Positions 2 to 64,000 of a DNA stretch of 64,000 nucleotides are shown piece by piece. Origin of the DNA: Cytophagales bacterium. Its GTDB lineage: Bacteria; Bacteroidota; Bacteroidia; Cytophagales; Spirosomataceae. The DNA lies in NCBI GenBank assembly GCA_004292855.1, contig RDXN01000030.1:62001-126000 (forward strand), in the 5' to 3' direction. Position 1 is the first letter of the stretch, and each line of letters opens with the position of its first letter. A program made the position numbers and the translations under genes. The notes under the pieces were generated by a model that did no database searches, was not told the DNA's origin, and worked only from the letters and a program-made list of their open reading frames with translations.

Positions 2-1084
2 AAGAAGATTGAATTGGCGATCAATGTATTCGAGAAGTACGTGGACATGCAAGCATTTGACGACCGAATCACGACGTTCCGGTCGGAGGGGATTACGCCC
101 CAGATGTTCCAGTATGGGCTTCTAAAAACGGCCAAAAGCGCGAAAAAACACATCGTTCTGCCCGAAGGTAACGACGACCGAATCCTGAGAGCTGCCGCCC
201 GACTGATTGCCCAAAACGTAGTCAGTTTGACTATTCTCGGCGACCCTACGGAGGTGACAGCCTCGTTCCGCAGACTGGGTTTGGAGGAGGCCGCCAAAGC
301 AATCCAGATTATTGACCCGGCCACCTCGGAGCAGTATGAGTCGTATGCCGAGACCCTGTACGAACTGCGCAAGGCCAAAAACGTGACCCTCGACATGGCC
401 CGCGACCTCCTGCTCGACGTGTCGTATTTTGGGACTATGATGGTCTACAAAGGCCATGCCGACGGGATGGTGTCGGGGGCGGTGCATACCACCCAACACA
501 CGATTCGGCCCGCCTTGCAATTTATCAAAACGAAGCCGGGGGTTTCGCTGGTGTCGTCGGTGTTTTTCATGTGCCTGCCCGACCGCGTGGCCGTGTTCGG
601 CGATTGCGCCGTAAACCCCAACCCCACCGCCGAGCAATTGGCCGAGATCGCCATTTCGTCGGCGGAGAGCAGTGCCCGGTTTGGGATTGAACCCCGCGTG
701 GCGATGCTGTCGTACTCGTCGGGCACGTCGGGGGAGGGCGAGGAGGTGGAGAAAGTCCGGCAGGCAACGGTTCTGGTTCGCGCCAAACGACCGGATCTGA
801 AAATTGAGGGGCCAATCCAGTACGATGCCGCTGTGGACCCGTCGGTGGGTAGACAGAAACTACCCAATTCAGACGTGGCGGGTCGGGCAAGTGTGCTCAT
901 CTTCCCCGACCTGAACACAGGTAACAACACCTACAAGGCCGTACAACGCGAAACGGGGGCGTTGGCCATTGGTCCCATGCTCCAGGGCCTTAACAAACCA
1001 ATCAACGACCTGAGCCGGGGCTGCACCGTCGACGATGTATTCAACACGGTGGTCATCACGGCCATTCAATGTCAGGATTTTTAA
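2..1084 (+). CDS. pta: phosphate acetyltransferase, C-terminal part (truncated by window edge)
   Basis: Converts acetyl-CoA and phosphate to acetyl phosphate in the cytosol. It is the partner of the acetate kinase that starts 5 nt after it. The reading frame is already open at base 2 (Lys-Lys-Ile-Glu before the first possible start), so the true start lies off the left edge. About 360 residues remain. They carry the catalytic PTA domain, with the blocks LPEGNDDRIL, MVSGAVHTTQHTIRPALQ, NPNPTAEQLAEIA and QYDAAVDPSVG. A full-length Pta of the two-domain type is roughly 700 residues, so an N-terminal DRTGG/P-loop-like half is probably missing here only because of the window. The assignment is firm; the start is unknown. 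Confidence 0.95.
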   Translation, partial: KKIELAINVFEKYVDMQAFDDRITTFRSEGITPQMFQYGLLKTAKSAKKHIVLPEGNDDRILRAAARLIAQNVVSLTILGDPTEVTASFRRLGLEEAAKAIQIIDPATSEQYESYAETLYELRKAKNVTLDMARDLLLDVSYFGTMMVYKGHADGMVSGAVHTTQHTIRPALQFIKTKPGVSLVSSVFFMCLPDRVAVFGDCAVNPNPTAEQLAEIAISSAESSARFGIEPRVAMLSYSSGTSGEGEEVEKVRQATVLVRAKRPDLKIEGPIQYDAAVDPSVGRQKLPNSDVAGRASVLIFPDLNTGNNTYKAVQRETGALAIGPMLQGLNKPINDLSRGCTVDDVFNTVVITAIQCQDF

Positions 1085-7259: not shown

Positions 7260-10200
7260 ATGCCTTTCATTCTACGGTTGTTTCTTTTTTTGTTCGTTCA
7301 TCAATCCGTTTTTGCCCAGGGTTTTTCGGCCTGCGGCACTGACGAATATAATCGACAACGGCAGGCAACCGATTCGCTCTACCGAGCCTTCGTGCTGAAC
7401 GCTCGTGCCGTGGAAACCACCGACAAAGCCGCCGATAAGAGCCTGCTCACTATCCCGGTCGTATTCGTGGTGTATCACCTCGGCGAACCCGTGGGGCAGG
7501 GGAGCAACGTGCCCGAATCCGTGTTGCGGGCGCAAGTCGAGCTGATGAACCGGCAATATGGAGCGACTTCAGGAGTAGCAGCCAACGGCGGCACCGATAC
7601 GCGCATTCGGTTTGTGATGGCCCGGCGCGGTGTGGGTTGCACAACGGCCAACGGTGTGTATCGGCTTGATGGCCGGTCGGTAGGGGGGTATGCGGCCGCC
7701 GGGGTCAATTATCTGGATACCGATATGCAACTGAGGCTGGAGACTCTGGCCGGTCCGGCCATAAACCAACTAGGGCAGCAGGCTGTAATTGTGCGGGTGT
7801 ACTGGCAGGTGACGGGGGCGGGTGGTTGGGCCACTTTTGGGGGCGACATTTCGGTGGGTGCCCCCTCGATGTTTTATACGTCGCCTTACGACGACCTGAT
7901 GGCCCATGAGATGGGGCACGTGTTGTTTCTGAACCACACCTTTTTGGGGGGCGACAATAACGTGAACTGCCCGCCCAACGCCAACCCCGCCACTCAGGGC
8001 GACGAAGTTGCCGACACCGACCCCCACCTGAAAGCGTACCCAACAGACGCCTGCTCGATAGAGTCCGAAAGCCAGATCAACATCTGTACTGGACAAGCCT
8101 TCGGGAAAATTGGGCGGAACATTATGAGCTATGGGTGCCGGAAGTACATCTTTACACCCGGCCAAATTGCCCGGATGCGGGGGTATCTGGCGGGCAGTTT
8201 GAGTCGGTTTGTGAATTCGCCCTACGCATTTCCACCCACGGCTGCCGAGGGGCTACTGGCGGCATCGTGTACGCCTACGTCGGGCGTTACGGCCACGGTA
8301 ACGTATCAAAAGGAGGGCATTGCCCGCGTGCAACTGGCTCAACTCGACAGCCGGACCGAGTACACGGGTAGCCGGGCGTTGCTCTACGACGATTTCAGTT
8401 GTCTGCGGCAGGCCACGCTCCGGGCTGGGCAGTCGTACACCGTGACGCTCGACGCCCCGTTTGTGAACACTCACCGCCGGGTTTACATCGACTGGAACGG
8501 TAACGGCACCTTCGACGAAACCACCGAACGGGTATTCAGCACGGCGATTGGCGAGGACGCAGGCACGTTTGTAACACCCCCGACGGCCCTCACTGGGCAA
8601 AATCTTCGGATGCGCGTGGTGGTGTGTGAGGGAAATGTGGCTCCCTCGGCCTGCTTCGTGCCCACGTTGGGGGCCGTGCAGGACATAGCCGTTCGGGTTG
8701 AACCGGCAGCGACCCCGGCGCAGGTGCAATTGGGTGTGTTGAACAACCTCAGCCTGTGTTCGGGTGGGTCGGTGTTGCTGCCCTACACGCTGGGCAGTGG
8801 GGGGAGTTTGAGCGCGGTAGGCGTTTCGGCAGAATTGTCGGACGCGACGGGCGGGTTTGGCAACCCCTTGTTGTTGGCTACCGGCACAGGTGGGGTGCTC
8901 ACCGCCGAACTACCCACTACTCTTACCACCGGCACGGGCTACCGAATCCGGCTGTCGGCAGCGGGTTTTGCCCCCGACCAAACGCCCCCGCTCACCATCC
9001 GCCAAACCCCCACAGGCACGTTGGTAGGCTCTACCTCGACCATCGTGGGCCGGGTTATGCCCTTGACAATCACCCTCACCGGCGCAGGCCCGTGGGTTGT
9101 CTCGACGGTGGTAACCCCTGCTCCAAGCGACTATTATTTGCCCGGTCAATACGAATCGTTGACCCTCACGGCGGCCTCAACCACGCTCACGGCCCAACCC
9201 TCGGGTACGGCGGTATATCAACTAGCCACGGTGGAGTCGGGAGGGTGTGTGGGTACCTCGACGGGCGCGGCCCTGACGGTGGTAGCCCTCTGCCGCCCCC
9301 CCGAAAGCCTGACCGAAGCTGATCCAACCACCAGTTCGACTTATTTGCGCTGGGAGCAACTCGGCTACCGGAACTACTTCGTGCAATGGAAAGATGCCAC
9401 GGCTTCGAGTTGGACAAGTTTGCCTGCACAGCCCTACACCGAAGCGTATTTGTCGGCCCTGGTGCTGGGGCGGGTGTATGAGTGGCGGGTGGCGGCAGCG
9501 TGTAGCACCACCCAAAACTCGGCCTACTCGCCCATACGCAGCTTCACGCTCAACTGCCCCGTCCCAACCGACATCTACGAAGGAATAACGCCCACCTCGG
9601 CCACGTTCGGTTGGTATGGTGGGGGCGCATCGACCTACGAAGTCCGTTGGCGACCCACCGGCGCGAGTAGCTGGACGACCATTTCGGGCCTAACCAACCC
9701 GTCGTACACCCTGCCAAACCCGGCTCCGGGGGGAGCCTACGAGTGGCAGGTGAGCAGCGGTTGCGTCGGGGGGAGTCGGTCGGTGCTAACGCCTGTTCGG
9801 TCGATCACGCTGGGATGTAAACCGCCCTTGTCCCCGTTTTATTCGAGTGTGGGCAGCACCACCGCGCAGGTGGGTTGGTGGCAAGTGCCGGGGCAGCAGT
9901 ACACGGTTCGGTGGCGGGCCAAAAACACGATCAACTGGGTAACCCTCGCGCCGGTAGCATCGGGCGTAACCACCCTGACGGGCTTGCCGAGTGGGCAGAC
10001 GGTTGAGTGGCAAGTAGCTTCGGTTTGTTCGGGGAGCGTTGTTTCGGCGTTCTCGCCCACACAGGAGTTTCCGACCAACTGCGCCAATTTGGGGTTGCCC
10101 ACCGTGGGCAGTATCACGTCTTATTCGGCCCTGATTAGCTGGGTGTCGCAATCTGTGGCCTCCTGGACAGTACAATGGCGAAAGGTGGGCGCAACGGCCT

Positions 10201-57664: not shown

Positions 57665-58931
57665 GGTTGTCTGTCAAATTATGTGGTTTCACTCAGAAAT
57701 GGCTAAAACTCGTAACCGCAGATGCTCGAAATTAGTCATGCCGAATGCTGTTCGACGCACACTGCGAATCAAATTATTCAGCCCCTCCGTCACTGCATTC
57801 GATACCGAATTGAGCACGTAATTAGCAATGTACACGTTGGTTTTAGTTAGGGTTTTAACGAAAGTATCGAAGGCGGTTAGGCTTTTATGGGCTACTTCGT
57901 CAGTCCACTGCTGAATGCCAACCAGGGCGGACTCAACGCTTACACTGTTGTCGAGAATGTGATGAAAGGCTTCGCGGCTCCAATAGACTTCTTTCAAGGC
58001 TGGTGAATCGGCAAAGGCCAAATCCAGATCGTCCAGTTGCTTGTCCGACAGGGTGTGATATTGTTTGTAGAGTACCCATTTGAGGGCCTTATAGTGGGGG
58101 TTATCTTTGTCGGACTTGCGGAGTTGTTTACGGAAGCTATCGACACTTTCATTGAGCCATTTAACCACATGAAACCGGTCCAGAACCAGCGTTGCTTGCG
58201 GAAAACAGAGTTGGGCAGTCACGATATAGGCATCCCAATAGTCGCAGGAAACATCGGTTATCTGCTGGCAAAAAGATGCGCCAAGTCCCTTAAAATGAGT
58301 GACTAATGTTTCTTTCTTGCGGTTTGGCAGGATGTCCAGTAACGTGCCCCTATCTAAATCGGTGAGGATGCAAATGAAATCTTTTTTGCCCTTGCGATGG
58401 CTGTGTTCGTCAATGCCTAACCGGCGAACGCGGGCGTAGCGGGTGGGCAAATCAATGACCTGGGCGCAGCGGGCCAGCACAACTCGCTCAACCGTTTTGG
58501 GACTCGTATCGACTAAAGCGGCTACCTCGGTATAACTTTGCTTGCGAGCCAGCATAAACATGTAATTAGCCTGCCGGTGGGTGTACTCTTTCGCTAAATC
58601 AGCAAAGTCGAGACTCTCGCTGAAGTATCGCTGGCAATTTTGGCAGTGCATCTGCCGCATTTTGACCACTAGATAAACGTGCCGAATGCCCATGTTCAAA
58701 TCTCTCAGCGTGCGATTATAATACTGATTGACGTTGGTTATGGGCTGATGGCAAGTGGGACACGACTGACTAGTGGCTTGGGTTTGGCATTCGATATGAA
58801 TGGTTTTGGCGGCTACTTCGACGTGAGTAATCGAGAGGGAAGGCAAGTCCAGCAGTTGCTCGTAAATTGAGGCTAAGTCCATGATGAAAGCTACTCAAAA
58901 AAGCCCGATCCACATAATTTGACAGACAACC
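57665..58931 (-). mobile_element. complete ISL3-family insertion sequence
   Basis: A 1267-bp element bounded by perfect 22-bp terminal inverted repeats (GGTTGTCTGTCAAATTATGT + GG at 57665-57686; complement at 58910-58931) and flanked by an 8-bp direct repeat CGGTTTGT (57657-57664 and 58932-58939). Eight-bp duplications are typical of ISL3. It has one ORF, the transposase, on the minus strand. Identical flanking repeats and ends imply recent and likely functional insertion. Confidence 0.97.
57689..58882 (-). CDS. ISL3 family transposase
   Basis: A 397-residue DDE transposase. N-terminal zinc ribbon with two Cys pairs (CPTC near 40, CQNC near 80), a helix-turn-helix segment (YTEVAALVDTSPKTVERVVL), and the catalytic Asp segments GIDEHSHRKG (about 155) and DYWDAY (about 210). 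The C-terminal TEGLNNLIRSVRRTAFGM carries the Glu of the DDE triad. It is intact, full-length for ISL3, with no frameshift. Both ends of the element are perfect. Confidence 0.95.
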   Translation of the reverse strand: MDLASIYEQLLDLPSLSITHVEVAAKTIHIECQTQATSQSCPTCHQPITNVNQYYNRTLRDLNMGIRHVYLVVKMRQMHCQNCQRYFSESLDFADLAKEYTHRQANYMFMLARKQSYTEVAALVDTSPKTVERVVLARCAQVIDLPTRYARVRRLGIDEHSHRKGKKDFICILTDLDRGTLLDILPNRKKETLVTHFKGLGASFCQQITDVSCDYWDAYIVTAQLCFPQATLVLDRFHVVKWLNESVDSFRKQLRKSDKDNPHYKALKWVLYKQYHTLSDKQLDDLDLAFADSPALKEVYWSREAFHHILDNSVSVESALVGIQQWTDEVAHKSLTAFDTFVKTLTKTNVYIANYVLNSVSNAVTEGLNNLIRSVRRTAFGMTNFEHLRLRVLAISE

Positions 58932-59182: not shown

Positions 59183-59320
59183 AAAAGTTAAAAAATTTGC
59201 ATTAAAAGTTAAAAAAATAACATTATAGGTTTTTTTATTACTTAGTTTCGGGCGTCTACTTTGCATTGGCCGAAAGCCGGTGAGCGGATGTTCACCCCAA
59301 TCCTTCGGCTAAACCATAAA
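59183..59320 (+). promoter_or_regulatory. duplicated control region A: spaced direct repeats, promoter and structured 5' UTR
   Basis: Two copies of AAAAGTTAAAAAA start at 59183 and 59204 (21-nt period, two helical turns), as expected for a dimeric DNA-binding protein. A TACTTTG -7-like box lies at 59257-59263. The following UTR can fold into an outer stem GCCGAA (59269-59274)/TTCGGC (59304-59309) enclosing GGTGA (59279-59283)/TCACC (59292-59296). The peptide ATG follows 11 nt after the outer stem. The block is repeated almost unchanged at 63020-63157, with 5 differences in 138 nt. Confidence 0.75.
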
Positions 59321-59620
59321 ATGAAAAGTAAATTTCAAAATCTCAATTTTGGCTCGGTTGCCCTGCTTAGTCAGGACGAGCAACGGAAGGTGAAGGGCGG
59401 GTATTATCCTCCTGGCTCACCTACTACTGGACCCTACACTCCACCATGGAATGGCAACCCAGGGGGTGGCCCTTCTGGACCAGGAGACGCCGTTGCTTGT
59501 GTTAATGGGGTTTATGCCGCAACACTAAGTGCTACTGATTGTGCAGCTACTTATGGCAGCGCAAACTGCACTCCAAAAATTTCATGGACAGGTGTTTGTA
59601 AGACCCCTGGGCAACTCTAG
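59321..59620 (+). CDS. double-glycine-leader peptide precursor 1
   Basis: A 99-residue precursor. Leader residues 1-27 (MKSKFQNLNFGSVALLSQDE + QRKVKGG) end in Gly-Gly at 26-27, the cleavage pattern of bacteriocin/RiPP precursors exported by peptidase-containing ABC transporters. The presumed core (28-99) is Pro/Gly-rich at first (YYPPGSPTTGPYTPPWNGNP) and then has four Cys (ACVNG, TDCAA, ANCTP, GVCKT). The leader is nearly identical to that of the gene at 63158 but the cores are unrelated. I chose the ATG at 59321 since it starts exactly at the conserved leader; the upstream frame to 59261 is UTR. A terminator-like hairpin follows. Confidence 0.75.
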   Translation: MKSKFQNLNFGSVALLSQDEQRKVKGGYYPPGSPTTGPYTPPWNGNPGGGPSGPGDAVACVNGVYAATLSATDCAATYGSANCTPKISWTGVCKTPGQL

Positions 59621-59630
59621 CTTAAAATTG

Positions 59631-59662
59631 TATGGTGAAGTCTACTAGTATTCTTCACCATA
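59631..59662 (+). terminator. hairpin after peptide 1 (attenuator or terminator)
   Basis: TATGGTGAAG (59631-59640) pairs perfectly with CTTCACCATA (59653-59662), 12-nt loop, 10 nt after the peptide stop and 16 nt before the lipoprotein ATG. No long T-run follows, so partial read-through is likely. It would give much peptide mRNA and less downstream mRNA. Confidence 0.65.
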
Positions 59663-59678
59663 CTACTTAATTAACACT

Positions 59679-60752
59679 ATGAAACGAACGATATTTTACT
59701 GGCTCATAATCGTTTTATTGGGTGGTTGTCGAGAGAAAGACAACGACATAGTGGCTGTTAATCCCGTATTTCAACCCTACATCGATTTTTTCCAGAAAGA
59801 AGCGGTAAAGCGAAATGCGAGTATCGTAAAATTGGATCGTATCAACGTCGTTTTTGGTAATCTACAAGCTAAACAAATAGGAGCGTGGGCGCAGGATAAT
59901 ACCATTACGATAGATTCTATTTATTGGAGAAAAGGCAGCGAATACTACCGAGAACAACTGATTTTGCATGAATTAGGGCATTTAGTTCTCGAAAGAGTTC
60001 ATGATAATTCCTTCCTGGAAAATGGTGAAATGGCATCGATCATGCAAAATGTATTGGTTGACAACCCAGCCGTGAAAGGCTATCCGATGTTTCGCGGAGT
60101 ACGGAAAACCTATTATTTGGACGAGTTATTTGGGTTGCAAAGCCCTGATTCCTATTGGTCTAAGTCCCAGTTTTTAAAAACTAAACTTCAGGAAGGTAGC
60201 AGACAATTGGTAGTCTCGCAAGATTTTTTATCCGATAATGGACTATCAACCTTCATGTCGACCATTGGGAACGAGGCAAAAATTGAAGGAGGTTTGTTGA
60301 AGATTGACGCTCAAAACCGTATCATACTCGTATTGATGGGTTCACTTTTGAATAGTATGGGCGTAAAGCAAGATAGCATCACTTCGATAACCAATAAAAA
60401 CTACGAGATTGAATGGAAATTGAGAATTAGGCAAGGGGGCGTACTGTTTGCAAACGGAATTCAGCAAAATGACTATTTTAATTTCACCATTGCAACGGAG
60501 GGGATCAATCAGCTATCTATACCAGAAGGTTTTTTCTCTCCGCTCAACACCCCAATTGCAACGAATACCTTCCTGAGTTTTCGATTAAGAAAGTATGAGA
60601 ACACCGTTTTGATAGCTGTAAATGATAAGCCCGTTTTCTTCACTGAACTCGTAGGAAACGCTTCTAATGCCGTTTGGATACACAATCTTACGCTAAGTAG
60701 ATTGAATACGAGTGTAGATATTGATTACTTTAATCTATATAAAATATTGTAA
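59679..60752 (+). CDS. lipoprotein with zincin-like HExxH motif
   Basis: A 357-residue lipoprotein: signal peptide with lipobox IIVLLGGC, lipidated Cys at 17, then an Arg/Asp-rich start (REKDND) compatible with surface or outer membrane placement. Around residue 100 lies LILHELGHLVLERVHDNSF: HExxH as in zinc metallopeptidases, with another His seven residues after the second His of HExxH, unlike the exact metzincin spacing. The C-terminal third (EWKLRIRQGGVLFANGIQQN, TFLSFRLRKYENTVLIAVND) is beta-rich, like a laminin-G/concanavalin-type sandwich. It might mature or degrade the linked peptides. No known family assigned. Its stop abuts the next ATG. Confidence 0.7.
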   Translation: MKRTIFYWLIIVLLGGCREKDNDIVAVNPVFQPYIDFFQKEAVKRNASIVKLDRINVVFGNLQAKQIGAWAQDNTITIDSIYWRKGSEYYREQLILHELGHLVLERVHDNSFLENGEMASIMQNVLVDNPAVKGYPMFRGVRKTYYLDELFGLQSPDSYWSKSQFLKTKLQEGSRQLVVSQDFLSDNGLSTFMSTIGNEAKIEGGLLKIDAQNRIILVLMGSLLNSMGVKQDSITSITNKNYEIEWKLRIRQGGVLFANGIQQNDYFNFTIATEGINQLSIPEGFFSPLNTPIATNTFLSFRLRKYENTVLIAVNDKPVFFTELVGNASNAVWIHNLTLSRLNTSVDIDYFNLYKIL

Positions 60753-62846
60753 ATGAGAGAATTGACTCTTTCTCTGTTCCTTTTTTTACTCACGACTGCG
60801 GCAGTCAGTCAAGTGCCTAGTGCGCCGATACGGCTGCATTGCAACAAGGCTTTTTACCAACCCCAAGACACAGTTTATTTTAAACTGTACCCCCTACCTA
60901 CTGCCACGGCAGAACATGAGCCTTCGAGTCAATTAATCCATGTCGAGTTGTTCTCTGGTCAAGGCAAACTGCTTCAGAAACAACAGCTCTACGCCGAAGC
61001 GGGACACGTTAACAGCTTTTTTGCCATAAATTCACCGGCCGATACGGCCTTGTATTACCTAAGAGCCTATACCCAATTACAAAAAACTAACGCTGATACA
61101 ATTCTGTTAGTTGAACCGATCATCGTTTGCGCCCCTCCCTTTCATTTCGTTGAAAAGCCGTCAATAAAGCTTCATTTTAGTCCACACAGTACGGATGTAG
61201 TTGAAGGTTTGCCAGCTATGATTGATGTGTATGCTACGAACGATTTCGGCCATCTGTTTACTGGAAAGGGGTACATAGCTGACCACGAAGGGAACAAAGT
61301 GGCAAATTTTGATACAGGTAACCCAACAATGGGTCAATTTCTTTTCGTTCCTGTTGCCAATAAAACCTATACGGCAACCGTAGTTGTTCACGATAAGATC
61401 GTGACACAACCGTTTATCAGCGTACAGAAACAGGGGGCAAGTCTGTATGCACCGAACGTAACAGCCGATACCGTTTCGTTTCGGTTTTACAGCAATTTCA
61501 AGTCGCCCAAAAAAACGATTACTGTTCTTCACGACAAGCAGATTCTGTGGGCAGCCGAAGACACAACGAATCGAAATGTATTGCGATTCTCCATACCCCA
61601 AAATGTATTTCCACCGGGTCGCTCGCAGGTAGTGGTGGCGACTGATTCGGGTCGGGTTTTAAGTAGATATTGGTTTGAACAGTCAAAAAATGGCAGATGC
61701 ACCAGTAGCTATGATGCTGAACAAGAGCGGATTGTAATTACTACTAACACGCCCACCCACCTTTCCCTATCCCTTTCGGATACGGTCGTAAGACAACGTA
61801 CTACTATAAGGTACGCCCCGGACGCAGCCCAATCACGGTCAGAAAATGAACCAGGTATCGACGTAAGAGGTACGGCTACGCAAGAGCAGGGTAAGCCCTA
61901 CGCCAATGGAGACCTAATGGTTTTTAATGCGGTCACTAAACGAAATTTTATCATCAAGACGAATGAAAATGCTGCGTTTTCATTCGTAGATGAGCTGACT
62001 GAAGATACGTTGGTCTATTTTGTACAAGGGTTGAATCGGAATGGCAAGCCTGTTAAAGTGACTGTTCGTTTGAAAGCCGATTCAATACCCTTCAGAATCC
62101 CATCGAACCCCTACTCATTCGCTCGAAAGACCCGTTTTTCTACGTCCGGCTCAAAACCTGTAAACCAGGGTGCGGAGGTAAAGGGCGAAAAAGTCATAGA
62201 CCTTTCAAGTGTAGAAGTCAAAGCCAAAGCTTCCTCCAAGTACCTGGATAACAAGTCCAAGCTTTTCAAAGCGGACGTTACTATCAATCAAGAAGAAATC
62301 AAACAGCGCGTCGGCTCGCGAGCGGCAACCAATTTGGAAGAATTATTGATTGGGCGTGTTCCCGGCCTTGAGTTGGTTGGGGGCAGGATACGAATTAGAG
62401 GACCGCAGTCTTTTGGGTCAAATACTCCTCTTTTGATTCTCGTCGATAATGCTCCAGCCGATTACTTGTTCGTAGAGGAATTGATGCGAAACTGGCAACT
62501 AATCGAAAAAATAGAAATAGTCAAAAGCCTCAGTGGTAGCATTTTATACGGCTCAAGAGGGGGCGGGGGTATTGTTGCCATAACCACCAAAAACCTGCTT
62601 AAAGCCACCAAAACCCCGCCTTCTCAATTCTCACTGGGGACTATTCTAAAAGTGGGCGGATTGACCCCTTCGCTCGGGCAAAAAAACGTGGATAGGTGGT
62701 ATGTCTTCGTTGAATCAGATGGCATCAATCCCGTATTCATCCCGTTGAAAAAATCGGATTTACAATCGAGCCGTTATCTACAGATAGAAGGGATTTCGCA
62801 AGACGGGCTTATTGTTTCGTTTCAACAGCGACTAGAAATAAAGTAA
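60753..62846 (+). CDS. MG2-like / TonB-dependent receptor plug domain protein
   Basis: A 697-residue exported protein. Signal peptide LTLSLFLFLLTTAAVSQVPS; an MG2-type (macroglobulin) domain (RLHCNKAFYQPQDTVYFKLY, YYLRAYTQLQKTNADTIL); a carboxypeptidase-regulatory-like stretch (DVRGTATQEQGKPYANGDLM). From about residue 510 there is a TonB plug-like domain: SRAATNLEELLIGRVPGLEL, IRIRGPQSFGSNTPLLILVD, SLSGSILYGSRGGGGIVAIT. No beta-barrel follows, so this is the barrel-less MG2/plug group of Bacteroidota. It abuts the lipoprotein stop (TAA then ATG), forming an operon with the peptide gene. Role unknown; it may sit at the outer membrane as a receptor partner. Confidence 0.75.
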   Translation: MRELTLSLFLFLLTTAAVSQVPSAPIRLHCNKAFYQPQDTVYFKLYPLPTATAEHEPSSQLIHVELFSGQGKLLQKQQLYAEAGHVNSFFAINSPADTALYYLRAYTQLQKTNADTILLVEPIIVCAPPFHFVEKPSIKLHFSPHSTDVVEGLPAMIDVYATNDFGHLFTGKGYIADHEGNKVANFDTGNPTMGQFLFVPVANKTYTATVVVHDKIVTQPFISVQKQGASLYAPNVTADTVSFRFYSNFKSPKKTITVLHDKQILWAAEDTTNRNVLRFSIPQNVFPPGRSQVVVATDSGRVLSRYWFEQSKNGRCTSSYDAEQERIVITTNTPTHLSLSLSDTVVRQRTTIRYAPDAAQSRSENEPGIDVRGTATQEQGKPYANGDLMVFNAVTKRNFIIKTNENAAFSFVDELTEDTLVYFVQGLNRNGKPVKVTVRLKADSIPFRIPSNPYSFARKTRFSTSGSKPVNQGAEVKGEKVIDLSSVEVKAKASSKYLDNKSKLFKADVTINQEEIKQRVGSRAATNLEELLIGRVPGLELVGGRIRIRGPQSFGSNTPLLILVDNAPADYLFVEELMRNWQLIEKIEIVKSLSGSILYGSRGGGGIVAITTKNLLKATKTPPSQFSLGTILKVGGLTPSLGQKNVDRWYVFVESDGINPVFIPLKKSDLQSSRYLQIEGISQDGLIVSFQQRLEIK

Positions 62847-62968
62847 CTGTATTTCAACCCCAATGGGTACAATACAAAACTCAAACAACTCTTTATGTAA
62901 CAGTAGAAGGTACTATTCAGGATAGAAGGCCCGTGTCTTCGAACTGGAAACTACCTGTAGAAAACTGA
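62822..62968 (+). other. open frame beyond the plug protein, possible frameshifted tail or decayed remnant
   Basis: In the frame one base before that of the plug gene, 62822-62968 reads STATRNKVTVFQPQWVQYKT and then a TTLYVTVEGT-like strand before TGA. The phrase resembles the ends of MG2/plug proteins (T-T-L-Y ... V-E-G). It is either chance or the decayed end of a related gene. Evidence is weak. Confidence 0.2.
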
Positions 62969-63019
62969 GTCAAAATCAGGATGATTTTTAGAAATCACTC
63001 ATAGGCAAGAAAGGTCATT

Positions 63020-63157
63020 AAAAGTTAAAAAATTTGCATTAAAAGTTAAAAAATTAGTATTATAGGTTTTTTTATTACTTAGTTTCGGGCGTCTACTTTG
63101 CATTGGCCGAAAGCCGGTGAGCGGATGTTCACCCCAACCCTTCGGCTAAACCATGAA
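63020..63157 (+). promoter_or_regulatory. duplicated control region B: spaced direct repeats, promoter and structured 5' UTR
   Basis: Copy of 59183-59320: AAAAGTTAAAAAA at 63020 and 63041 (again 21 nt apart), TACTTTG at 63094-63100, and stem GCCGAA (63106-63111)/TTCGGC (63141-63146) with the inner GGTGA/TCACC hairpin. The single difference within the UTR fold is in the loop between the inner and outer stems, not in a stem. Together with the leader the duplicated block spans 63020-63241. Confidence 0.75.
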
Positions 63158-63421
63158 ATGAAAAGTAAATTTCAGAATCTGGATTTTGGCTCGGTAGCCC
63201 TGCTGAGTCAGGATGAGCAACGGAAGGTAACGGGCGGGTATATTCCAAGTGCTGGTGGTGGCCCTGGGGGCGGCTGTCTCAAAAAAAATTGTACATATAA
63301 AATATGGACGGATTTCAACAAATATACACTTGCATCGGCAAGCTGTAATGTCACATCCATGCCAGGTAAGGATGAATGCCTGTATGTATGCTCACAGCCT
63401 GGTGGCTCTGCTTGCTCATAA
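63158..63421 (+). CDS. double-glycine-leader peptide precursor 2
   Basis: An 87-residue precursor. Leader MKSKFQNLDFGSVALLSQDE + QRKVTGG, Gly-Gly at 26-27; only N9D and K25T differ from precursor 1. The core (28-87) is unrelated: Gly-rich start (YIPSAGGGPGGGCLKKNC) and six Cys (GGC, KNC, ASC, DEC, YVC, SAC), pairs that could form disulfides or be modified. Of eight nucleotide changes in the leader, six are silent, while the core shows no alignment to precursor 1. The start at 63158 is set by the leader. Preceded by control region B. Confidence 0.75.
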   Translation: MKSKFQNLDFGSVALLSQDEQRKVTGGYIPSAGGGPGGGCLKKNCTYKIWTDFNKYTLASASCNVTSMPGKDECLYVCSQPGGSACS

Positions 63422-63568: not shown

Positions 63569-64000
63569 ATGAAACACATCATCGCGTTTTTTCTCATTGG
63601 GTTTCTCTCAATATGCCCACTCAACACAAAGGCACAGTCTCCGTTTAAGGTGTATTTTACTTATGAAAAATGCGCTAAGAATAGGGATTTTAGTTTTGTA
63701 TTCCATGATGGTGAGAATGTAATTCCTGCAAAAGCTATTAAAACTGACAATGGATATATTGTCACTGGAAAGTTACGAACCCAATATAGCTATATAGAGA
63801 TTCTTGAAAAGAAAGATAGTTTATCAAGCTATTGTCAACGTTATGTGATAAGTAATGTACCAGCTAAAATTCAGTATGTTAGTTGTGACTCTTCAAGCAA
63901 AGAATCTTATTGGAGTGATGTCAAACTCAGTAACGCAGAGGATTGGAAAGGATATGCAAAAGATATGCATGAGTCTTTAAATGATGAATATGAATCATTG
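63569..64000 (+). CDS. exported hypothetical protein, truncated by window edge
   Basis: The frame is open from the ATG at 63569 to the end of the window (144 codons). Signal peptide HIIAFFLIGFLSICPLNTKAQ, then a beta-rich part (KVYFTYEKCAKNRDFSFVFH, IVTGKLRTQYSYIEILEKKD) and a charged stretch near the edge. It faintly resembles the DUF4369 N-terminal domain that precedes thioredoxin-like domains in Bacteroidota; this cannot be confirmed without the rest. AT-rich like the peptide cluster. It may be the next gene of the peptide-2 unit, matching the place of the lipoprotein in unit 1. Confidence 0.55.
   Translation, partial: MKHIIAFFLIGFLSICPLNTKAQSPFKVYFTYEKCAKNRDFSFVFHDGENVIPAKAIKTDNGYIVTGKLRTQYSYIEILEKKDSLSSYCQRYVISNVPAKIQYVSCDSSSKESYWSDVKLSNAEDWKGYAKDMHESLNDEYESL

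Follow-up and report, generated by a model that had tools for sequence, protein, structure and literature searches.

Two precursor peptides encoded near the right end of the window analyzed here, a stretch of 64,000 nucleotides (nt) from a Cytophagales bacterium of the family Spirosomataceae (contig RDXN01000030.1, positions 62,001 to 126,000), share a nearly identical promoter region, 5' untranslated region (UTR) and double-glycine (GG) leader, but continue into different Cys-containing cores. We consider it likely that a single machinery handles these modular peptides, glycosylating them under guidance of the leader, forming their disulfides, cleaving them with a C39 peptidase and exporting them, with a protein of the Pfam family DUF6734 as the candidate glycosyltransferase. 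This view draws on sequence and structure models, namely on the genes present, the modeled folds, the catalytic motifs, the association of the leader with DUF6734, and covariation in an RNA element of the 5' UTR. Coordinates are collected in Table 1.

The 222-nt duplication described in the initial annotation is real, and its gap-free alignment with 13 differences was reproduced. On both sides of the block, identity is at background level at once. The differences fall into 5 in the 138 upstream nt and 8 in the 84 coding nt; the upstream part, which includes the structured RNA element, is thus more conserved than the part encoding the leader. Six of the eight coding changes are silent, as first counted, compared with a random expectation of about 20% (P = 0.0013), bearing out the earlier claim of selection on the leader. 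When further leader copies were sought across the whole genome, the block was present exactly twice (100% and 94%). A leader profile matched both precursors (precursor A, E = 2.3e-17; precursor B, E = 1.1e-17), and across six precursors the leader is conserved and its Gly-Gly invariant.

Similarity between the two genes ends just past this Gly-Gly, as the initial annotation had stated, giving way to 72 residues with a Pro/Gly-rich linker and 4 Cys in core A and to 60 residues with 6 Cys in core B. Because BLASTP of the cores alone was uninformative, we compared cores by shuffled Smith-Waterman alignment. Core A and core B scored 43, a value equalled by 39 of 1000 shuffles, and have no convincing similarity; the earlier description of the cores as unrelated therefore holds for this pair. 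It does not extend to core B as such: in an Arcicella genome the same leader is followed by a clearly related core (score 82; 0 of 1000 shuffles), with Cys at positions 13, 18, 36, 47, 51 and 59 in core B and 13, 18, 35, 47, 51 and 57 in the Arcicella core. Cores behind this leader type also include Pro/Gly-rich ones with 2 Cys, in genome G008 and in Spirosoma oryzae, and others with 4-6 Cys, in Fibrella and genome G376. Among 190 genomes of the family, no core homologue better than E 7e-4 was found besides the window's own, and neither a search of a plasmid collection nor one with PADLOC gave a match. Separately, a precursor of this leader type in genome G359 (L188, ~9590-9649) has a run of nine G directly after the Gly-Gly and a seemingly shifted frame, and is possibly a phase-variable or broken copy.

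The leader points to DUF6734. When 200 genomes of the family were searched with the leader alone, eight had strong matches (E at most 8e-9), and in all eight a DUF6734 gene lies within 3 kb of the leader, compared with 31 of the 200 genomes overall (Fisher P = 1.4e-7). The same leader type with different cores, adjoined by DUF6734 in eight genomes, supports the initial proposal that one machinery serves diverse cores. In G008, DUF6734 directly adjoins a precursor with this leader type and another core, followed by genes for an MG2/plug protein, a matrixin-like protein, TlpA, a VKOR fusion, a C39 ATP-binding cassette (ABC) transporter and HlyD. Beyond the family, a DUF6734 search of a named genome collection returned 79 loci, 48 of them with a GG-leader open reading frame (ORF) within ~3 kb. 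Such ORFs concentrate next to the gene, with 37 in the first kilobase and another 29 out to 3 kb, as against 2 in ~519 kb at 4-8 kb and a further 6 at 9-10 kb (density 0.24/kb at 0-1 kb versus 0.004/kb at 4-8 kb). A C39 ABC exporter is present in 38 of the 79 loci and a VKOR fusion in 28. Long forms of DUF6734 stand beside GG peptides at 47 of 64 loci and short forms at 1 of 15 (P = 2.4e-6, not corrected for relatedness among loci). Two other settings were also seen: a DUF6734 relative amid prophage-like genes (L088, 9377-10252) and, by eye, a distant tandem pair amid contractile-injection-system-like genes (L089, 9320-11018).

The N-terminal 290 residues of the DUF6734 protein were modeled with high confidence (AF2 pLDDT 97.1; alignment of 73 sequences). 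In VIA-align comparisons the model matched the GT-A enzymes glycogenin (Z 13.2; root-mean-square deviation (rmsd) 3.6 over 206 residues), LgtC (Z 11.7) and LARGE1 (Z 11.4), and Foldseek placed it with GT-A enzymes at E 2.5e-6. Residues D104, D106, H251 and K257 are invariant in the 73 sequences and G254 is kept in >90% of them. The protein thus combines a GT-A fold with a DxD metal motif and an HxxGxxK motif, which we take to be the pattern of GT8-type enzymes and to correspond to residues of LgtC and glycogenin. In glycogenin-1, a change of Asp102 abolishes autoglucosylation (PMC5203857). A profile search of the PDB with the DUF6734 sequence found no relative and no glycosyltransferase, Pfam gives DUF6734 alone, and our literature search found no mention of the family. 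We predict from its modeled fold that DUF6734 is a glycosyltransferase, and these peptides are probably what it glycosylates.

A second domain would offer a way for such an enzyme to find its substrate. The C-terminal 124 residues (AF2 pLDDT 93.7) are modeled as three strands followed by three helices in a winged helix, which is how a recent survey defines the recognition element (RRE) of ribosomally synthesized and post-translationally modified peptides (RiPPs) (PMC12710340). The best RRE match was TbiB1 (Z 9.7, rmsd 2.0, 84 of 85 residues), and other leader-binding domains followed (NisB, Z 9.7; MibB, 9.4; PqqD, 8.5; MccB, 8.4; PbtF, 7.3). In two Flavobacterium forms of DUF6734, the C-terminal position of the RRE is taken by a domain of the C39 family (E 1e-18 and 2e-13). 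In Flavobacterium gawalongense (L124, L154 10862-11977), the C39-family domain fused to DUF6734 apparently lacks the catalytic Cys.

Export and redox genes lie to the right of precursor B. The initial annotation had pointed in this direction for a C39-peptidase ABC transporter and for maturation genes of the radical S-adenosylmethionine (SAM), ATP-grasp or LanB types. The transporter was found: beyond the window, after the TlpA/ResA-type thioredoxin gene and in the same direction, follow genes for a VKOR fusion, a C39-peptidase ABC exporter, HlyD and TolC (L003, 6769-13168), so that the exporter comes with its partners and two thiol-redox proteins. Among the locus genes, none of the LanB, radical-SAM or ATP-grasp types was seen; the maturation candidate is instead the predicted GT-A/RRE protein DUF6734 inside the window. 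The exporter (787 aa, 2.7 kb past the end of core B) has a C39 domain (E = 3e-31) with retained catalytic Cys (MDCGPTC), ABC membrane and ATPase domains, and HlyD and OEP partners. In the fusion protein (467 aa), VKOR and thioredoxin domains follow a C39-like N-terminus. Among 34 VKOR fusions from the present and related loci, none has Cys in the catalytic C39 column and all 34 carry at least two CxxC motifs. Since the catalytic Cys is missing and the CxxC motifs are kept, the C39-like part probably survives as a relic that binds the leader, and the remainder probably serves as a disulfide-forming unit. From these gene assignments, it is very probable that the peptides are exported, cleaved after Gly-Gly and provided with disulfides. 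The same genome holds two more VKOR-fusion loci with Cys-containing cores (L041, 9700-11569, and L044, 373-2243; contigs C63 and C41), with GG leaders of a different type, MKTLLSRFSGTTLSKEQMKTIKGG and MKTMLASFSGQTLSREQMKAVKGG.

The conserved upstream part of the duplicated block contains, in both copies, an RNA element with an outer stem, an inner hairpin and an unpaired C-rich strand just 5' of the start codon. Compensatory pairing changes are present in five sequences of the element from four genomes. The covariation score was matched by 0 of 500 shuffles and drops sharply once the partners are slid, although the independent covariation events are few and the shuffles leave relatedness in. 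A covariance model run over the 200 family genomes recovered the five known copies, and its next two matches (E 0.0025 and 0.004) lie directly 5' of precursors with a different GG leader. Seven copies thus stand out, 7 of 7 ahead of GG-leader precursors. In L205 and L198 (~1501-1740) the element lies ahead of a further GG-leader peptide, MQRLSLAELKAQK...IKGG, and it is therefore not bound to one leader family; its place ahead of two leader types suggests a common RNA-level control of such peptides. No Rfam family matched the element, and a search of the order (R2) gave, beyond the known copies, weak matches, none ahead of a GG-leader precursor; the element is limited to a few Spirosomataceae. 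A broader proposal, a structured 5' UTR for every GG precursor near DUF6734, was rejected, as fold z did not differ between 71 precursors and 171 controls (P = 0.57).

In the pathway that we propose, transcription of each precursor would start just 5' of the RNA element, which probably controls translation or stability. The RRE-like domain of DUF6734 would bind the conserved leader while the GT-A domain puts a sugar on the core, the acceptor probably being Ser, Thr or Tyr; we favor O- over S-glycosylation because the even number of Cys in both cores could fully pair. The VKOR fusion and the TlpA thioredoxin would form or proofread the disulfides of the core, and the C39-like domain of the fusion, which has no catalytic Cys, may additionally hold the leader. 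The C39-peptidase ABC transporter would then cut after Gly-Gly and, together with HlyD and TolC, export the core. With a machinery that reads the leader alone, the promoter-UTR-leader cassette could be duplicated and joined to different cores.

Several points weigh against this pathway. The glycosylation itself and its acceptor residue are what we infer, as is leader binding by the RRE. The RRE-like assignment of the modeled domain is strong but short of proof, because its Foldseek E is just 0.02, so that the match rests on fold, and the top of the list is shared with an unrelated methyltransferase (Z 9.9). An odd number of Cys occurs in 9 of 37 VKOR-linked cores, and S-glycosylation may therefore occur in the wider family. 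The insertion sequence of the ISL3 family now intervenes between the DUF6734 and helix-turn-helix genes and precursor A. Some DUF6734 relatives occur in prophage-like or other contexts, and many VKOR/C39 clusters with GG peptides do without DUF6734, which would make it an optional tailoring gene. Finally, no immunity gene was recognized at the locus.

This last point also bears on what the peptides do. They might be secreted structural or signaling peptides, with the HELGH lipoprotein and the MG2/plug protein as processing or surface partners, a possibility that we hold to be the less probable one and that is compatible with leader-guided glycosylation. Metallopeptidase-like and MG2/plug-like proteins do lie between the precursors, and likewise in the G008 locus, but for neither gene was a match found at the loci of Arcicella and G376, where some genes are unassigned. 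Quickly changing cores behind a fixed leader are, moreover, typical of diversifying toxins and pheromones. We thus lean towards an antibacterial role, with a bacteriocin-like weapon as the most likely form and signaling or surface use as alternatives.

The peptides could instead be unmodified, disulfide-bonded class II bacteriocins resembling bacteroidetocins, with the neighboring DUF6734 protein glycosylating a surface polysaccharide or another protein. Bacteroidetocins go with the same set, a C39 ABC transporter and a thiol oxidoreductase (PMC6671954), and the many loci of this kind without DUF6734 would fit. We regard this as unlikely, given that DUF6734 adjoins the present leader type in all eight genomes, carries RRE-like or C39-like C-terminal domains, and is found beside GG peptides in its long, domain-bearing form. 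Far less probable is a lanthipeptide-type RiPP, with class I-like leaders and LanB/LanC acting in trans. Some DUF6734 loci in other genomes are lanthipeptide clusters with LanB and LanC, and the leader weakly matches NCBIfam NF038153 (E 0.44; Arcicella peptide 0.04), at 10.8 bits against a cut-off of 22. Neither the ORFs examined in the vicinity nor the syntenic loci of G008, Arcicella and Spirosoma contained LanB or LanC, and the locus has disulfide-forming genes instead; lanthipeptide, radical-SAM and ATP-grasp readings were rejected for want of such genes in the locus. That the block arose recently by chance, as a tandem repeat or gene-conversion tract, and that its leader is free of selection, as the higher identity of the UTR over the coding part might suggest, is hardly credible given the silent excess and given that other genera have the same leader and UTR structure, there combined with different cores and with compensating changes in the stems.

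Table 1. Features of the precursor locus and its surroundings (window coordinates).
Feature	Position	Strand	Evidence or remark
DUF6734 protein, 454 aa	55884..57248	-	PF20508, E=2e-93
Parts of DUF6734 protein: predicted GT-A glycosyltransferase; RRE-like winged helix	residues 1-290; about 331-454		
XRE-type helix-turn-helix protein, 121 aa	57265..57630	-	PF01381, E=6.7e-10
ISL3-family insertion sequence, intact	57665..58931		transposase 57689-58882 on -; PF01610, E=6e-62
Repeat block copy A (promoter region, 5' UTR, leader)	59183..59404	+	94% identical to copy B
Promoter -7-like TACTTTGC, copy A	59257-59264	+	
5' UTR RNA element copy A	59266..59320	+	covariance model match 69 bits; fold z -2.8; covariation
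Precursor A, 99 aa	59321..59620	+	leader MKSKFQNLNFGSVALLSQDEQRKVKGG (59321-59401) + 72-aa core
Lipoprotein-like protein with HELGH zinc-peptidase-like motif, 357 aa	59679..60752	+	
MG2-like N-part and SusC/RagA plug-like C-part, without barrel, 697 aa	60753..62846	+	
Repeat block copy B	63020..63241	+	whole-genome search, alignment
Promoter -7-like TACTTTGC, copy B	63094-63101	+	
5' UTR RNA element copy B	63103..63157	+	covariance model match 70.2 bits; covariation
Precursor B, 87 aa	63158..63421	+	leader MKSKFQNLDFGSVALLSQDEQRKVTGG (63158-63238) + 60-aa core, 6 Cys
TlpA/ResA-type thioredoxin start, 376 aa, runs past window	63569..64000	+	PF00578, E=1e-19

Among the neighboring genes, the one for the XRE-type protein lies just upstream of DUF6734 on the same strand, and its product is a possible regulator. 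The ISL3 element ends in 22-bp perfect terminal inverted repeats and is flanked by an 8-bp target duplication, CGGTTTGT. The 697-aa protein between the precursors has a partial match to TIGR04056 (E = 9e-12) and a weak one to PF01835. A pair similar to this protein and the HELGH lipoprotein is present in the G008 locus, where the matrixin-like protein has 255 aa (PF00413, E = 1.7e-9). Just beyond the export operon, two genes were assigned by eye, one as rhodopsin-like (255 aa, minus strand; L003, 14598-15365) and the other as probably coding for a carotene-cleaving Blh-like protein (324 aa; L003, 15559-16533).

Among described systems, glycocin loci combine a leader peptide, a glycosyltransferase, thioredoxin-like proteins, a C39-type exporter and a Cys-rich core (PMC12457901). 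The present locus shares this logic with sublancin, glycocin F and thermoglycocin, including a glycosyltransferase candidate, but differs in that DUF6734 is a glycogenin/LgtC-like GT-A protein with an RRE-like domain and its glycosylation is predicted, that the redox unit is a fusion of degenerate C39, VKOR and thioredoxin domains, and that the host is Gram-negative with HlyD and TolC. A SunS-type (GT2-like) glycosyltransferase was not seen: the locus proteins scanned gave no match to PF00535, leaving DUF6734 as the only glycosyltransferase candidate. With bacteroidetocins the locus has in common a Bacteroidota host, a GG leader, a Cys-containing core, a C39 ABC transporter and a thiol oxidoreductase (PMC6671954); it differs in its larger, modular cores (60 and 72 aa), Pro/Gly linker, DUF6734, VKOR fusion and HlyD/TolC, and no class IIa-like core was recognized, a comparison in which no bacteroidetocin sequence was directly aligned. 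The GG-leader RiPPs of Bacteroidales that use peptidase-containing ABC transporters (PCATs), of the TIGR04149-type radical-SAM and LanC clusters, share the GG motif and the PCAT, whereas radical-SAM, LanB and LanC genes were not seen here. Two Bacteroidales PCAT clusters with glycosyltransferases have been noted, and the terms vitamin K, thioredoxin and glycocin do not occur in the main text of that study (PMC10352776). The leader-binding domains of RRE proteins (NisB, MccB, ThcOx, TbtB, TbiB1, PqqD) match the C-terminal winged helix of DUF6734, while the catalytic domain fused to it here is GT-A. RRE fusions with glycosyltransferases of PF00535 are named in the 2025 RRE survey, in whose passages found by our search DUF6734 does not occur (PMC12710340). 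Our literature search found nothing joining double-glycine, vitamin K epoxide reductase and bacteriocin, and no closer RRE-linked glycosyltransferase.

Taken more broadly, we marginally favor the view that DUF6734 represents a class of RiPP glycosyltransferases that has yet to be described, in which a GT-A domain is joined to a built-in RRE or degenerate C39 domain, acting on GG-leader peptides across Bacteroidota, including the gut species Segatella copri, together with a new 5' UTR RNA element controlling such precursors in Spirosomataceae. A Pfam family of unknown function thereby gains a concrete, testable function, and its RRE-like fusion makes DUF6734 a candidate tool for leader-guided glycosylation. 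If true, a large unexplored set of probably glycosylated peptides would exist in Bacteroidota of environmental and gut origin, a group with few known peptide toxins.

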